From positions 49,827 to 113,826 of the forward strand of contig NZ_JAAIXY010000023.1 in assembly GCF_010894455.1 (NCBI RefSeq): a DNA stretch of 64,000 nt, given 5' to 3'. Made by a program: the position numbers and the translations under genes. The notes under the pieces are model-generated. The model was not told where the DNA came from. It worked only from the letters and a program-made list of their open reading frames with translations, and did not search any database. Source of the DNA: Myxococcus eversor (GTDB lineage: Bacteria; Myxococcota; Myxococcia; Myxococcales; Myxococcaceae). Below, in pieces: positions 51,530 to 58,132 of the stretch; the stretch's first letter is position 1; every line of letters starts with the position of its first letter.

Positions 51530-52249
51530 TCAGCGCACCGGAAGCTCTCGAAAGGAGATTCCTTCCAGGGACAGTCGCTGCACCGACTCCATGAACCGCT
51601 CGGTTCCCACAATCACCGTGGCGAAGTTGCCAACCCTGAAGAGGTCACGGTCCAGGGGCAAGGTCGCGGCGTCGAGGATGGGCTCCTCGGGCAGGCGAAG
51701 CCCGACCCTTCCACACGTCACGCATGGCGGAGGCGAATCCGGAGGGAGACAATCCGGGTGTAGCCGTCCACAAGGTTCGATCTGAAGCTCCAGCAATGAG
51801 GGAGGCTCTTGTTGACGGAAGCGCAGCTCCGTTCGACATCCCATGAGGCCGCGCACGCCCTCGGCTTGAAGCCCCTCCTGCACATCACTGCGAACGAGCA
51901 ACAAGCTGTCGCCCAACCACGAGAAGGCGGCGAACCTGCCGGAAGCAGTCCCCACCAGCGGGCCGAATGTTGTCCCAGGTGGCAACGTCGCGGTCGACGG
52001 TGCCAGCGGCCTCACTCGTTCCCGAAGGCGCGCGAACTCAGCGACGGGCTCGGGCCGAGCCTTCAAGAACTCGTCCTGGTCTGGCAGTCCGGACAGGTCG
52101 ACTGCCGGATACTGGTGTCCCGAGGAACTCCAGGTCGCGCCGCACGCCGAGCAGTGCGCGCCAGGCAGCCCCCACCTGTGCGCGGCGTTGAGGCTCCCGT
52201 TGAAGCGAGGCCAGAGTGACTTGTTCCACCTGAGTTCAAAGACGCGCAT
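51530..52249 (-). CDS. sitI6: SitI6-type double-CXXCG motif immunity protein
   Basis: A 239-residue cytosolic protein with two CxxCG knuckles, CSACG near residue 33 and CVTCG near 176, the signature of the Myxococcus double-CXXCG family that includes SitI6 immunity proteins. It should neutralise the toxin encoded directly upstream. Its ATG (52249) overlaps the toxin stop (TGATG); an in-frame GTG at 52252 is also possible. Coupling of toxin then immunity gene is the order known for sit loci. Confidence 0.8.
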   Translation of the reverse strand: MRVFELRWNKSLWPRFNGSLNAAHRWGLPGAHCSACGATWSSSGHQYPAVDLSGLPDQDEFLKARPEPVAEFARLRERVRPLAPSTATLPPGTTFGPLVGTASGRFAAFSWLGDSLLLVRSDVQEGLQAEGVRGLMGCRTELRFRQQEPPSLLELQIEPCGRLHPDCLPPDSPPPCVTCGRVGLRLPEEPILDAATLPLDRDLFRVGNFATVIVGTERFMESVQRLSLEGISFRELPVR

Positions 52250-52920
52250 CACGTTCCCGGCCTGGAATGGTAGGGCTGAATGGGCCCGCCCAGGAGCTGG
52301 AATCGGTAGATGAGTTCGCCCGCGTGCTTGAAGATCTCCTCAGGCCTCGCATCATCGTTTCTCCGGATGAACTCGCGCCAGGCCTCGTTCCAGGCACCTC
52401 CTGACGGACCTCCATCGTGAATCCGTCGGTGAAGGTCTCGCGGAATGGGCATGGTGTAGTCGTGAATCTTGAGCCCCTGACGCTCGAACCACCGTGCCAG
52501 ATCTTCTGCCTGGGGGAAGATGTGATGCTTCTCGAACCGGCCCCGCGGGAGTTGATGCGAAGGGGGGATGATGCGTTCGGGGGCACCATTCCAGTTCGGG
52601 AAGACCATGACGGCGCCCTTGGGGAGTTGCTGAGCACCGCCCCGGTTCCGTCGAGGTCCCATCCCAGGTGCCGCTGCCGCCGCCGGTGGACGTGATGGAG
52701 GAAAGCGCGCGAGCTCGATGTCGCCGGCCACGTCCTCACACCGGTAGAAACCGCACATGGCTCCGAGGCACAGGAGCGTGACACACCGGTCCTCACTGGG
52801 AGCTGAACACTCCGCGTCCTCTTCGCCCATCTCCTGAGGGTCAGGGACGTGCTGAACGGAGGAGCAAGCCAACAAGTACGCTGCAACCAGCATCCACCAT
52901 GAGTCGCGAATGAGCGGCAT
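52249..52920 (-). CDS. sitA6: SitA6-type polymorphic toxin lipoprotein
   Basis: A 223-residue lipoprotein (LLAC, Cys19). The N-terminal region has a Cys-rich linker (38-61) and a Pro/Ala stretch (74-90). The C-terminal toxin domain (100-215) carries HHIFPQ (132-137), IHDYTMPIPRDLHRRIH (152-168) and GGAWNEAWREF (174-184), a compact His-Me/HNH-like nuclease pattern typical of SitA6/TIGR02269 lipoproteins. In Myxococcus, SitA toxins pass between kin through TraA-dependent outer-membrane exchange and kill recipients lacking the cognate SitI. ATG 52893 is an alternative start that keeps the lipobox. Confidence 0.8.
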   Translation of the reverse strand: MPLIRDSWWMLVAAYLLACSSVQHVPDPQEMGEEDAECSAPSEDRCVTLLCLGAMCGFYRCEDVAGDIELARFPPSRPPAAAAAPGMGPRRNRGGAQQLPKGAVMVFPNWNGAPERIIPPSHQLPRGRFEKHHIFPQAEDLARWFERQGLKIHDYTMPIPRDLHRRIHDGGPSGGAWNEAWREFIRRNDDARPEEIFKHAGELIYRFQLLGGPIQPYHSRPGT

Positions 52921-52956: not shown

Positions 52957-52985
52957 TTGACAAGGCCCCGCATCCCGTTTATTTC
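52957..52985 (+). promoter_or_regulatory. sigma70-type promoter of the thrA leader
   Basis: TTGACA at 52957-52962, 17 nt, then TATTTC at 52980-52985. Transcription would begin near 52992, where the riboswitch aptamer begins. Confidence 0.7.
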
Positions 52986-52990
52986 GCGTG

Positions 52991-53067
52991 CAGCATCAAG
53001 AGCGGTACCGCTTCGGCGGTGGCCCGACAACCTGGAGACGGACCTCCAAGGTGTCCAAACGATGCGG
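52991..53067 (+). promoter_or_regulatory. compact SAM-I/SAM-IV-clan (S-box-like) riboswitch aptamer
   Basis: The RNA folds as P1 GCAUC (52993-52997) with GAUGC (53061-53065); then AAGAG; P2 CGG/CCG (53003-53005, 53024-53026) capped by CCGC-UUCG-GCGG (53008-53019); ACA; P3 ACCUGGAG (53030-53037) with CUCCaAGGU (53044-53052). AUCAAGAG, GGCCCGA, CAACC and AAGGUG occur in the order seen in S-box RNAs. The P4 arm of SAM-I is absent. It lies just downstream of the promoter and upstream of thrA and the metI/metC pair, which fits control by S-adenosylmethionine. Ligand binding is inferred. Confidence 0.7.
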
Positions 53068-53103
53068 CTCGGGGAGCAAGTGCTCCACTGGCAAACCAAG
53101 CGT

Positions 53104-53131
53104 CCGAAGCGAGGCAGCTCCTCAGCTTCGG
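53104..53131 (+). promoter_or_regulatory. strong hairpin downstream of the SAM aptamer
   Basis: CCGAAGCGAGG (53104-53114) pairs with CCTCaGCTTCGG (53120-53131), 11 bp with one bulged A and a 5-nt loop. A smaller stem, GGAGC-AAGT-GCTCC, lies at 53073-53086, and GGGGAGC (53071-53077) could instead pair with GCTCCTC (53117-53123). It is a plausible expression platform, although no U-tract follows. The remaining leader to 53402 holds no evident gene. Confidence 0.45.
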
Positions 53132-53402
53132 TGAGAGAGGACCTCCGTGGTTCCATCCACCTCCGCCGCATCCCCTCGCGCCACGCAGCTCCCTAGCCGC
53201 GAGAGCGCTCGAATGCGCCGCGCCCGCCACGTCACCGTCTCGCGAATGCGCGGGACGCTACACGCCGGCTAGGGCTCCCACTCCACTTCCCATTCCTTTC
53301 TTCGTCGGCGCCTGGTCGCCGCGCTCGCTCGACGTGTGTCGACAGCGCGTCCTCGCGCCCTCTCATGTCTTCAGGGCCATGGCCCTCGTTCGAGGTTCGC
53401 AG

Positions 53403-55904
53403 ATGAGCAGCAATTCCTTTCGGGTGATGAAGTTTGGCGGCTCCTCCGTGGGCTCACCCCGCCGACTGCGCCAGGTCATCGAGCTGATTGGCAAACACTC
53501 CCGCACGGGCCCGCTCGCCGTCGTCGTCTCCGCGATGGGTGACACCACCGACTGGCTCCTGGAGGCCGCTGACCTCGCTACACGCGGCGAGCTGGAGGGC
53601 TCGCTCACCGTGGTGGCCCGCATCGCCCACCTGGCCAAGACGAACGCCGCCGCGCTCCACCCAGCGCAGTCCACCACGCTCGCCGCGCGCGTCGACCAGC
53701 TCCTCGCCCCGCTCCAGCAACTCCTGCAGGGCATCTCCCTCACCCGCGAGTGCTCCCCCGCATCCAAGGACAAGGTGCTCGCATTCGGAGAGGTCATCTC
53801 CGCCACCCTGCTCGCCGAGTTGCTCAGGGCCGCGGGCACCGACGCCCACTTCCGCGACGCCCGCCTGCTGCTCGTGACGGACGACACCTTCGGCACCGCG
53901 CGCGTGGACGTGAACAGGACACGCGAGCGACTTCAGGTCGCCATCGCCGAGTGGGGTACCACCCTCCCCATCATCCCCGGCTTCATCGCCGCGACACTCG
54001 ACGGACGCACCACCACCCTGGGCCGCAACGGCTCAGACTACACGGCGGCCCTGGTGGCTCAAGGCGTGGGTGCGTCCGAAGTCACCGTGTGGACCGACGT
54101 GCTTGGCCTTCACACCGCCGACCCGGACCTCGTCAGTGATGCGTATCCCGTGGCGCACCTCACCCATGGCGAGGGCCTGGAGCTGGCCGCCGTCGGCGTC
54201 CGCATGCTGCACCCGCGCACGATGATTCCCCTCATCGAGGCCGGCATCTCCCTGCGCATCCGCAACACCATGCACCCGGACCACCCGGGCACGCTCATCG
54301 ACGCCATCGGCTCGCGTGACGGCCAGCGCCCCACATGCATCGCCACGCGCGAGGACCTGGCCCTGCTGGGAATCGAAGTGCGCAAGCTGTCCGACCAGTT
54401 CCAACTCGGTGAGCGCGCCCTGGCCGCCCTGCGCGCCGCTCGCGTCACGGTGTGGATGACCGCCCAGTCCGCCAACGGCCAGTCCATCGCCCTCGTCGTT
54501 CCACGACCGGATGCACCGCGCGCTCGAAATGCCCTGGAGACGGAGCTCGCGCAGGAGCTGGCCCGCCGCGAGGTGGAGCCGCTCGGTGTCCGGGAGCCGG
54601 TGACGCTCGTCACCCTGGTGGCCGAGGCGATGGGCCATGGCGTCAACGTGGCCGGCCGATTCTTCAGCGCACTGGGCGCGGTGGGTGTCGGCGTGCGCGC
54701 GAGCGCCCAGGGTGCCAGCTCCCGCTCCATCTCCTGCGTGGTGGACGCGGAGGACACCGCCATCGCGGTGCGCACGACGCACGCCGCCTTCAACCTCGCC
54801 CATCAACAGGTCAGCCTCTTCGTGCTCGGCAAGGGCACCGTGGGCGGACAGCTCCTCGCACAGCTTCGCACCCAGCAGGAGCAGCTCCGCCAGCGCCATG
54901 GCATCGCGCTGCGCGTGGTGGGCATCGCCGACAGCCGACGCACCCTGTTCGACTCCACCGGGCTCGCCCTGGATGGAATCGAGGAGCAGCTCGCCCGCGT
55001 CGTCCGAGGCGAACCCGGCACGCGCGCGCTGGCGCCGCTGCTGGACGAGCTGCGCCGACTGCCCGTGCCCATCCTCGTCGACTGCACGGCGGACGGTGAC
55101 GTGGCCTCGCTCTACACGGAGGCGTTCCGTCGGGGCATCCACGTCGTGGCCGCCAACAAGAAGCCGCTCGCCCTGCCCTGGAACGAGCGCGAGGCGCTGC
55201 TCGCCGAAGCCCGCCATCACCACGTCGCGTACCACTACGAGACGACGGTTGCCTCCAGTCTTCCTGTCATCGACACGCTCGCCAACCTGGTGCGCACCGG
55301 CGACACCGTGCGCCTCATCACCGCGTCCCTGTCCGGCAGCGTGGGCTTCATCTGCAACGAGCTGACTTCGGGCGTCCCCCTCTCCACGGCGGTCCGCACG
55401 GCGCGCGAGCGGGGCTTCACCGAGTCAGACCCGCGCGAGGACCTGTCCGGCGCGGACGTGGCACGCAAGGCGCTCATCCTCGCGCGGGAGCTGGGCCTGT
55501 CCCTGTCACTCGCCGACGTCGCGCTGGAGCCCTTCGTCCCCGAGCCCTCGGACGCTGGCGACTCCCCCGAGTCCTATCTGCGGAGCCTCCGGGCACTCGA
55601 CGCGGAGTACACGCAGAAGGTGGAGCGCTGCAAACAGTCGGGCACGGTGCTGCGCTATCTGGCGCGCATCGACCCGACGCGGCTGGGCACCGACGCGCCC
55701 GTCATCCGAGTGGGACTCACCGCCGTCGAAGCGGGGCAGCCCGCAGCGGACCTGCGCGGCTCCGAGTCCTTCGTGTCCTTCACCACCACGCGGCACAGCG
55801 AGTTCCCCCTCACCGTGCGCGGCGCGGGCGCGGGAGGCGCTGTCACGGCTTCTGGCGTGCTCGCGGATATTCTCCGCGTCTCCCAAACGCTTCGGGGCCG
55901 CTGA
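53403..55904 (+). CDS. thrA: bifunctional aspartokinase/homoserine dehydrogenase
   Basis: An 833-residue fusion of normal ThrA length. The aspartokinase begins with VMKFGGSSVGSP (8-19). ACT regulatory domains fill about 310-460 (LLGIEVRKLS; VNVAGRFFSALGAVGVGVRA). The homoserine dehydrogenase starts at about 468 with FVLGKGTVGGQLL (NAD(P) site), then AANKKPLAL and GFTESDPREDLSGADVARK. It catalyses the first and third steps from aspartate toward threonine and methionine. ATG 53403 matches the conserved N-terminus; ATG 53379 is possible. The SAM-type riboswitch upstream and met genes downstream assign it to methionine supply. Confidence 0.9.
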   Translation: MSSNSFRVMKFGGSSVGSPRRLRQVIELIGKHSRTGPLAVVVSAMGDTTDWLLEAADLATRGELEGSLTVVARIAHLAKTNAAALHPAQSTTLAARVDQLLAPLQQLLQGISLTRECSPASKDKVLAFGEVISATLLAELLRAAGTDAHFRDARLLLVTDDTFGTARVDVNRTRERLQVAIAEWGTTLPIIPGFIAATLDGRTTTLGRNGSDYTAALVAQGVGASEVTVWTDVLGLHTADPDLVSDAYPVAHLTHGEGLELAAVGVRMLHPRTMIPLIEAGISLRIRNTMHPDHPGTLIDAIGSRDGQRPTCIATREDLALLGIEVRKLSDQFQLGERALAALRAARVTVWMTAQSANGQSIALVVPRPDAPRARNALETELAQELARREVEPLGVREPVTLVTLVAEAMGHGVNVAGRFFSALGAVGVGVRASAQGASSRSISCVVDAEDTAIAVRTTHAAFNLAHQQVSLFVLGKGTVGGQLLAQLRTQQEQLRQRHGIALRVVGIADSRRTLFDSTGLALDGIEEQLARVVRGEPGTRALAPLLDELRRLPVPILVDCTADGDVASLYTEAFRRGIHVVAANKKPLALPWNEREALLAEARHHHVAYHYETTVASSLPVIDTLANLVRTGDTVRLITASLSGSVGFICNELTSGVPLSTAVRTARERGFTESDPREDLSGADVARKALILARELGLSLSLADVALEPFVPEPSDAGDSPESYLRSLRALDAEYTQKVERCKQSGTVLRYLARIDPTRLGTDAPVIRVGLTAVEAGQPAADLRGSESFVSFTTTRHSEFPLTVRGAGAGGAVTASGVLADILRVSQTLRGR

Positions 55905-55935: not shown

Positions 55936-57063
55936 ATGAAGCTCGCCACCGCCCTCGTCCACGCCGGCACCCGCAGAGACCCGTCCACCGGCGCGGTCGC
56001 CGTGCCCATCTACCAGTCCGCCACCTACCAGCACCCCGCGCTCGGCCACTCCACCGGGTACGACTACTCGCGCACGAAGAACCCCACCCGCGCCGCGCTC
56101 GAGGACGCGCTCGCAAGCCTCGAAGGAGGCAACCGGGGCCTCGCCTTCGCCTCCGGCATGGCCGCGCTGCACTGCGCCCTCCAGCTCCTCGGCCCCGAGG
56201 ACCACCTGGTCCTCACCGAGGACCTCTACGGTGGGACGTTCCGACTCGTGGACAAGCTGCTCCACATCCCCCACACCTTCGTGGACACCACGCGGCTGGA
56301 CGCGGTGCGCGCGGCGCTGCGCCCCAACACCAAGGCCCTGCTGGTGGAATCGCCCACCAACCCGCTGATGAAGACGGCGGACCTGCCCGCGCTCGCGGAC
56401 ATCGCCCGGAAGGCGGGCGCGCTCCTCATCGTCGACAACACCTTCAACACACCTTTCCTCCAGCGGCCTCTGGAGCTGGGCGCGGACATCGTCGTCCACA
56501 GCGCGACCAAGTACCTGGCCGGCCACAACGACGTCGTCGCCGGAGCGCTCGTGGTGAAGGACGCGGCGGTGGGCGAGCGGCTCGCCTTCGTCCAGAACGG
56601 CATCGGCGCCGTGCTCGGGCCGCAGGACTCCTACCTGGTGATTCGCGGGCTCAAGACGCTCGCGCTGCGCATGGAGCGCCACCAGTCCAACGCCCGCGAC
56701 GTGGCCGCCTTCCTGTCGAGCCACCCCAAGGTCGAGCGCGTCTACTACCCGGGCACGGGCGGGATGCTCTCCTTCAACGTCACCGACGCGGCCCTGGTGC
56801 CGCAAGTGCTCGCCGCCGTGCGCATCTGCCTCTTCGCCGAGTCCCTGGGCGGCGTCGAAACCCTCATCACCTTCCCCGCCACGCAGACCCACGCCGACAT
56901 CCCCGTCGCGCGCCGGGAAGAGCTTGGCATCACCGACCGATTGATTCGCCTCTCCGTGGGCATCGAGGACAGCCATGACATCATCTCCGATTTGGCCCAG
57001 GCGCTCGAAGGGCGCTCCCAGCCCGTCGAGCTTCGCGACCCGACTGCTGCACACGGGTCATGA
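55936..57063 (+). CDS. metI: cystathionine gamma-synthase/O-acylhomoserine thiolyase-type enzyme
   Basis: A 375-residue Cys/Met-metabolism PLP enzyme. The Schiff-base Lys is Lys192 in HSATKYLAGHNDVVAG; YDYSRTKNPTR and FASGMAALH bind PLP. The usual insert between YYPG and GGMLSF is absent (YYPGTGGMLSF), a short-loop form shared by the next gene and reminiscent of Bacillus MetI/MetC. It should join an activated homoserine with cysteine or sulfide. AGGAG precedes ATG 55936, 31 nt after thrA. The C-terminus overlaps the next gene by 89 nt. Confidence 0.85.
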   Translation: MKLATALVHAGTRRDPSTGAVAVPIYQSATYQHPALGHSTGYDYSRTKNPTRAALEDALASLEGGNRGLAFASGMAALHCALQLLGPEDHLVLTEDLYGGTFRLVDKLLHIPHTFVDTTRLDAVRAALRPNTKALLVESPTNPLMKTADLPALADIARKAGALLIVDNTFNTPFLQRPLELGADIVVHSATKYLAGHNDVVAGALVVKDAAVGERLAFVQNGIGAVLGPQDSYLVIRGLKTLALRMERHQSNARDVAAFLSSHPKVERVYYPGTGGMLSFNVTDAALVPQVLAAVRICLFAESLGGVETLITFPATQTHADIPVARREELGITDRLIRLSVGIEDSHDIISDLAQALEGRSQPVELRDPTAAHGS

Positions 57064-58132
57064 AGTCGACCCGGTGACGGGCGCCGCCGCGGTGCCCATC
57101 TACCAGGTCTCCATGTTCGACCAGCCGGGCCTGGAGCACTCCGGCGAGTTCGACTACGCCCGCTCCGGCAACCCCACGCGCAAGGCATTGGAGGGCGTCC
57201 TCGCGTCGCTGGACGAGGGCGCCGGGGCCTTCGCCTTCGGCTCCGGCATGGCCGCGCTGTCCACGGTGCTGATGCTCTTCAGCGCGGGGGACCACCTGGT
57301 CGTCACCGACGACTGTTACGGCGGCACCTACCGCGTCCTCACCCGGGTTTTCAGCCGCTTCGGGCTCAAGGCCACCTTCGTCGACACGTCGGACGTGGAC
57401 GCGGTGCGCGCCGCGTTCCGCCCCAACACCAAGGGGCTGCTCGTCGAGACGGTGAGCAATCCCTTCCTGCGGCGCACGGACGTCGCCGCCATGTCCAGCC
57501 TCGCGCGGACGTACGGCGCGCTGCTCATCGTGGACAACACCTTCCTGTCCCCCTACCTCTCGCGTCCGCTCACCGAGGGCGCCGACATCGTCATCCACTC
57601 CGCCACCAAGTACCTGGGCGGACACAGCGACGTCATCGCGGGCACGGTGGCGGTGAAGACGCCGGAGTTGGCGAAGGAGGTCTACTTCCTCCAGAACGCC
57701 GTGGGTGCGGTGCTCGGGCCGCAGGACTGCTTCCTGCTCCAGCGCGGCATCAAGACGCTGCAGGTCCGCATGGAGCGGCAGGTGCGCACGGCCGGGGTGC
57801 TCGCGCGCTGGCTCGGAGGCAGGCCGGAGATTCGAGAGGTCTTCTATCCGGGCACCGGCGCGGTGGTGTCCTTCCGACTCGCCCATGACTCGATGGCGGC
57901 GACCTTCGTGGACTCGCTGCGACTGCCGCTGCTCGGCGTGTCGCTGGGCGCGGTGGAGAGCATCATCACCGTGCCGGCGAGGCACTCGCATGCCTCCGTG
58001 CCCGCCGCCGAGCGTGAGCGACGCGGAATCACCGACAGCCTCATCCGCTTCTCGGTGGGACTGGAGGACCTGGAGGACCTCCAGGCGGACCTCGCGCTCG
58101 CGCTGGGCCGGGCCTTGAAGGAGGCCGCATGA
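56975..58132 (+). CDS. metC: cystathionine beta-lyase-type PLP enzyme
   Basis: A 385-residue paralog of the upstream enzyme; PLP Lys212 lies in HSATKYLGGHSDVIAG, and FYPGTGAVVSF shows the same short loop. Conserved sequence begins only at ATRLLHTGHEVDP (about 22-34). ATG 56975 is the only ATG, GTG or TTG before that point, so the gene overlaps metI by 89 nt in another frame and its first 20 residues are an apparently unconstrained extension. It probably splits cystathionine to homocysteine; a gamma-lyase role is possible. Last gene of the thrA-metI-metC operon. Confidence 0.8.
   Translation: MTSSPIWPRRSKGAPSPSSFATRLLHTGHEVDPVTGAAAVPIYQVSMFDQPGLEHSGEFDYARSGNPTRKALEGVLASLDEGAGAFAFGSGMAALSTVLMLFSAGDHLVVTDDCYGGTYRVLTRVFSRFGLKATFVDTSDVDAVRAAFRPNTKGLLVETVSNPFLRRTDVAAMSSLARTYGALLIVDNTFLSPYLSRPLTEGADIVIHSATKYLGGHSDVIAGTVAVKTPELAKEVYFLQNAVGAVLGPQDCFLLQRGIKTLQVRMERQVRTAGVLARWLGGRPEIREVFYPGTGAVVSFRLAHDSMAATFVDSLRLPLLGVSLGAVESIITVPARHSHASVPAAERERRGITDSLIRFSVGLEDLEDLQADLALALGRALKEAA

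Follow-up and report, generated by a model that had tools for sequence, protein, structure and literature searches.

The leader of the thrA-met operon in the window (the whole 64-kb stretch of Myxococcus DNA analysed in this study) encodes an RNA that, judged by its sequence, is a genuine SAM-I/IV riboswitch, that is, a known class, here in a P4-less form. The new part is the leader downstream of the aptamer, in which a strand of the riboswitch pseudoknot is shared with a conserved hairpin and a small upstream open reading frame (uORF) precedes thrA. This leader architecture represents a variant that is unusual and comparatively well supported, and the mechanism beyond the aptamer is offered as a hypothesis. 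We lean slightly towards the reading that the riboswitch, composed of P1, P2, P3, P5 and PK-2 and devoid of P4 and PK-1, represses the operon at high S-adenosylmethionine (SAM) by way of uORF translation. The features of the locus are compiled in Table 1.

Table 1. Features of the thrA-met leader and operon (positions within the window).
Feature	Position	Strand	Remarks
Promoter TTGACA-17 nt-TATTTC	52957..52985	+	from the sequence; boxes at 52957-52962 and 52980-52985; TTGAC and TAT conserved in position among relatives
SAM-I/IV riboswitch aptamer, RF01725 match	52988..53093	+	47.1 bits, gathering cut-off 41.1
P1	52993-52997 with 53061-53065 (52993..53065)	+	encloses P2 and P3; no P4 in J3/1
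P2	53002-53025	+	within P1; UUCG cap
P3	53026-53055	+	within P1
PK-2 5' strand CGGAC in loop L3	53039..53043	+	invariant in 34 Myxococcaceae rows
P5 hairpin 3' of P1	53067..53092	+	covarying pairs
PK-2 3' strand GUCCG	53102..53106	+	invariant in 34 Myxococcaceae rows
Hairpin H1, CCGAAGC-GAGG / CCUC-A-GCUUCGG	53104..53131	+	conserved, covarying; 5' strand overlaps PK-2
Hairpin H2, holding uORF Shine-Dalgarno and GUG	53130..53161	+	minimum-energy fold (predicted)
uORF Shine-Dalgarno GAGAGAGG	53133..53140	+	conserved, 6 nt before start
Leader uORF, 41 codons, GTG...TAG, VVPSTSAASPRATQLPSRESARMRRARHVTVSRMRGTLHAG	53147..53272	+	frame kept in 32/32 leaders
CGAATGCG, second copy	53210-53217	+	
CGAATGCG motif, loop/stem of GC hairpin (53236-53257), uORF 3' end	53243..53250	+	invariant
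Spacer, uORF stop to thrA	53273..53402	+	G-poor pyrimidine tract ~53272-53305
thrA, bifunctional aspartate kinase/homoserine dehydrogenase I	53403..55904	+	NF006959, 772.9 bits, over cut-off
Cys/Met-metabolism PLP enzyme, cystathionine synthase/lyase family, metB/metC-like	55936..57063	+	PF01053
Second Cys/Met-metabolism PLP enzyme	57050..58132	+	PF01053; overlaps the first

The initial annotation had recognized a riboswitch of the SAM clan at this site and had proposed a covariance-model scan and an inspection of homologous leaders for covariation. The scan of 4,227 Rfam families against the whole window returned RF01725 above its gathering score, the match covering model positions 1-99 of 99 (E = 1.5e-4, or 1.2e-6 with the search restricted to 500 bases). 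It is the sole Rfam match in the window and the only RF01725 match in the whole 11.4-Mb genome, and RF01725 is the best-scoring family of its clan for this leader RNA. The homologous leaders, in turn, contain compensatory changes and a conserved fold. In the 34 leaders aligned, the 39 pairs of P1, P2, P3, P5 and PK-2 were formed in 95.2% of the cells, both-sided changes were found at eight aptamer pairs as compared to a shuffled mean of 4.0, and the covariation score of the aptamer was reached by no shuffle. The covarying pairs are located in the distal part of P2, at the top of P3 and in P5; P1 and PK-2 are nearly invariant within the family, so that covariation supports neither of them there. 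For PK-2, compensation was found by reading in three distant RNAs of the phylum, featuring CCUCGG/CCGAGG (G013), UCCUCC/GGAGGA (G150) and CCCG/CGGG (G170). The RNAs of G013 (L038) and G150 (L039) exceed the RF01725 threshold and that of G170 (L037) lies below it; a sigma-factor-like ORF, a small protein and an HTH-like regulator, respectively, follow them, as far as can be read from the sequences.

Regarding the anatomy of the aptamer, P1 (GCAUC/GAUGC), the UUCG-capped P2 and P3 (ACCUGGAG/CUCCaAGGU) read as originally described, and the motifs AUCAAGAG, GGCCCGA, CAACC and AAGGUG are all present in S-box order. The P5 hairpin and the PK-2 pseudoknot had been overlooked. Accordingly, the RNA is longer than the roughly 75 nt first assigned to it, since its fold runs to position 53106 via these two elements, and it can no longer be called a minimal member of the clan, because it shares P5 and PK-2 with both SAM-I/IV and SAM-IV, and P4 is missing from the family consensus as well. 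The region delimited in the initial annotation ended at 53131, which is the exact end of H1, a hairpin that it did not name. P5 contains one C.U mismatch in the window and is perfect in most relatives. P2 appears in the alignment as a single helix with neither an internal loop nor a kink-turn. Its loop varies (UUCG, UUCAC, CUCGC and CGGGU) while J3/1 stays UCCAAA, leaving the loop without a PK-1 partner, in line with the early observation that no P2-loop pseudoknot is evident.

The lack of a SAM-I-type P4 was likewise correctly described: J3/1 measures 9 nt in 13/13 Myxococcaceae rows, whereas a P4 with 4 bp or more occurs in 93 of the 99 scorable other loci sharing the L3 pattern (118 loci carry this pattern, a handful of them being chance matches in coding DNA). 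By this comparison of sequences, the lack of P4 is lineage-specific within the L3 subgroup. It does not exclude membership in the family, since in the consensus structure line of RF01725 P3 and P1 are joined by six unpaired positions, without any P4, and the Myxococcus aptamer is thus of a known kind.

Upstream of the aptamer, the TTGACA-N17-TATTTC promoter is found as initially reported, and its TTGACA box, its spacing and the TAT that opens the -10 box recur in most homologues. The predicted transcript start at approximately 52991-52993 coincides with the foot of P1. A scan with a generic promoter consensus did not call this promoter because its -10 box matches at three of six bases. The divergent neighbour (52249-52920, minus strand) encodes a SitA6-family polymorphic toxin lipoprotein (TIGR02269, 279.7 bits), a myxobacterial family, and the flanks 5' of the promoter differ among most relatives. 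Downstream, the fused aspartokinase-homoserine dehydrogenase and the two met enzymes of the first description were found again, the latter as PLP enzymes; the first of these reached no NCBIfam equivalog cut-off.

To describe the distribution of the RNA, 195 genomes of the phylum were considered, 36 of which carry RF01725. Within the genus, it was present in 27/27 genomes and always located before thrA, including two genomes in which it was recovered only with laxer filters; strict filtering alone had made it seem absent from these two. Among named genomes, a pattern scan detected this RNA in Myxococcus xanthus, M. vastator, M. qinghaiensis, M. dinghuensis and Pyxidicoccus fallax. It also precedes thrA in the genera g5 and g7, and genes whose translations read as O-acetylhomoserine sulfhydrylase (metY-like) or as a metX-like product in g8, g18 and g20. 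In other genera of the family (G060, G061, G069, G075 and G077), thrA homologues are present with no Rfam SAM riboswitch match within approximately 1.5 kb. An open-access literature search found no work on this leader in myxobacteria.

Immediately 3' of the aptamer, H1 is supported by its seven outer pairs, which were formed in 95.1% of the cells, by three pairs changed on both sides, and by a covariation score reached by 0 of 500 shuffles. PK-2 and H1 share the bases CCG and are therefore partly mutually exclusive, and the last two bases of H1 (GG) are also used by the predicted H2. The sister genera feature GGCGG-(SD)-CCGCC-AUG at the same position. The 3' strand of PK-2 was also considered as the Shine-Dalgarno of thrA itself and was rejected in this role, thrA starting about 300 nt downstream. 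In the G150 RNA, and apparently also in that of G170, this strand does coincide with a Shine-Dalgarno.

From these overlaps the following sequence of events is proposed. SAM would lock P1 and PK-2, and PK-2 would draw the GUCCG strand away from H1. The GG common to both hairpins would thereby be freed, allowing H2 to mask both the uORF's Shine-Dalgarno and its GUG. In this way, SAM may reduce uORF translation, as modelling of the leaders weakly suggests. With the full aptamer held in the models, 13 of the 34 leaders lost more than 0.1 in Shine-Dalgarno accessibility, which rose in one; accessibility of the start codon was mixed (lower in 7, higher in 12), and for the sequence of the window the change at the Shine-Dalgarno was negligible (0.37 to 0.34). 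In a local fold with the PK-2 strand held, Shine-Dalgarno accessibility was unchanged (0.379 to 0.378), so that the exchange between H1 and H2 remains a prediction.

The uORF itself is a GUG-initiated frame of 35-46 codons found in all leaders of the three genera in which the RNA precedes thrA. Up to the CGAATGCG landmark, in-frame stops occur in 0 of 30 leaders, as compared to 21 and 16 for the other two forward frames, and the distance from the start to the landmark takes nine distinct lengths, all multiples of three (two further genomes agree). On a tree of 32 leaders, which was built without the uORF segment, this segment underwent at least 12 length changes and no phase change, a result with a probability of about 2e-6 if phases were random; the spacer between the uORF and thrA underwent 19 length changes on the same tree, including 12 phase changes. 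Such conservation of the frame argues for translation of the uORF. The thrA frame takes all three phases relative to the uORF, and an N-terminal extension of thrA was therefore rejected; the long open frame that runs through the leader in the window is not common to most relatives. The landmark is invariant in the 32 leaders, including its wobble positions, and one clade has it twice, at a distance of 33 nt. As an anti-aptamer element pairing with the aptamer 5' strand it was discarded, duplex energies being no better than in shuffled leaders.

The peptide encoded by the uORF is free to change. Differences between codons are spread evenly across the three positions (104, 113 and 93), of 180 codon differences that involve a single base, 54 are synonymous, compared to 53.4 expected at random (the pairs are not independent), and no purifying selection at the amino-acid level was detected by this comparison. 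Because the frame is kept and the peptide is not, the switch probably controls the passage of ribosomes through the leader, and the act of translation, rather than its product, should be what matters. An untranslated uORF would then lower thrA-met expression; the C-rich leader, left uncovered, might be a target of Rho, or the effect might run through ribosome delivery and mRNA stability. Richness in C over G places the leader among the top 4-8% of stretches of equal length in the window, a modest value that would suit Rho. Tentatively, and with less confidence than in repression through the uORF as such, we propose for Myxococcus and its sisters that the SAM riboswitch, rather than acting on its gene directly, gates ribosome passage over a uORF of 35-46 codons free of sequence constraint, that the PK-2 strand, which can serve as a Shine-Dalgarno in other RNAs, has here become an arm of a three-way exchange between PK-2, H1 and H2, and that translation itself signals to a gene located 120-170 nt further on.

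A rather unlikely alternative places the switch point at the aptamer and the P1 3' strand instead of uORF initiation, the riboswitch acting mainly by attenuating transcription in the leader, either through Rho or through pausing at the GC hairpins close to the stop of the uORF. A complement to the P1 3' strand GAUGCGG(C), either CCGCAUC or GCCGCAUC, is indeed present at uORF codons 5-9 in roughly two of every three leaders, and in 14 of 32 leaders it beats shuffles (p ≤ 0.05); however, the M. xanthus-like clade and G073/G074 have a weak complement or none. The strong GC hairpins at the uORF end and stop and the C-rich tracts would also fit attenuation, as would the apparent intrinsic terminators found after PK-2 in Acidobacterial relatives, but no intrinsic terminator was found in the leader of the window, and attenuation alone does not explain why the uORF frame is kept. 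In the Acidobacterial SAM-I/IV RNAs concerned (L073, L067, L069 and L132), the terminators suggest transcription termination as the platform; the 5' arm of the L073 terminator, CCGCTCTCCTGATG, appears able to pair with the aptamer 5' strand.

It is improbable that the uORF is a classical peptide leader sensing an amino acid or stalling ribosomes through its sequence, whether independently of the riboswitch or in addition to it. The conserved VVPST at the start and RMR near the end of the peptide would be compatible with such a function, as would the short Cys-containing uORFs of the sister genera, where start position and Shine-Dalgarno are kept, with AUG, and the frame comprises just 7-9 codons (MCRCYLP, MMCHPLN and MCCCRPPQR). 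However, synonymous changes are no commoner than at random, the central part of the peptide cannot be aligned from one clade to another, the L012 uORF ends several codons early, and the Myxococcus uORFs lack runs of Met, Thr, Lys or Ile codons. Very short uORFs were recorded at L003, L006, L010 and L031, namely the three just listed together with MSRPALR; the three with Cys codons recall cysteine-responsive leaders. Finally, it is very improbable that the aptamer-like RNA has lost SAM binding or recognizes a different ligand, a reading to which the lack of recognizable methionine genes after the RF01725 matches of G013, G150 and G170 could point, since the core motifs of the crystallized RNA 4L81 (GAG, CAACCUGG, CGGAC and CCAAGGUG) are retained letter for letter and the downstream genes in Myxococcaceae all belong to the methionine pathway.

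If the leader works through uORF translation as proposed, it would provide a clean and conserved case of a riboswitch controlling a uORF without visible constraint on the peptide, thereby separating translation as a signal from the peptide as a signal. It would furthermore represent a SAM-I/IV riboswitch whose PK-2 strand has been rewired from the Shine-Dalgarno to a switching strand. M. xanthus is a genetically tractable model; as it carries the same leader, seen in strain AM003, the proposal is directly testable there.

Among known systems, SAM-I/IV (RF01725, 4L81; PMC5393176, PMC6890682) is closest to the Myxococcus RNA, sharing P1, an undivided P2, P3, P5, the SAM-pocket motifs and methionine genes downstream. 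RNAs of this kind were described in 2010 as variants with features of both families and without a P2 internal loop (PMC2864571). In 4L81, L3 reads ACGGAC and the 3' tail GUCCGU (PMC5393176), so the PK-2 letters CGGAC/GUCCG are identical. According to the cryo-EM study, SAM-I/IV has neither PK-1 nor a divided P2 and possesses P4, and SAM-IV is devoid of P4 (PMC6890682). The Myxococcus RNA accordingly differs from 4L81 by its missing P4, and from SAM-I/IV in general by the position of the PK-2 3' strand in H1 rather than in the Shine-Dalgarno of the gene and by the uORF lying between switch and gene. With SAM-IV (RF00634, PMC6890682) it shares the lack of P4 and the presence of P5 and PK-2, but it has neither PK-1 nor the division into P2a and P2b, and RF01725 scores best in the clan. 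SAM-I (S box, RF00162) has the same core motifs in the same order; unlike it, the Myxococcus RNA lacks P4 and the P2-loop pseudoknot and possesses P5 and PK-2 in addition.

With regard to the proposed mode of control, the B12 riboswitch of M. tuberculosis ppe2, where expression of the gene depends on uORF translation and a role of Rho was disfavoured (PMC11260477), may serve as an analogue, as a riboswitch there masks the start region of a uORF needed by the main gene, which is what is proposed here. It differs in its ligand, B12, and in a uORF overlapping the gene start (AUGA), whereas 130 nt separate the uORF stop from thrA in the window. The SAM-II metA riboswitch of Sinorhizobium meliloti (PMC9373788) also senses SAM, and its Shine-Dalgarno affects translation at a distance; however, it belongs to another aptamer class and its two start codons are in frame, whereas in Myxococcus the phase of the uORF to thrA varies freely.
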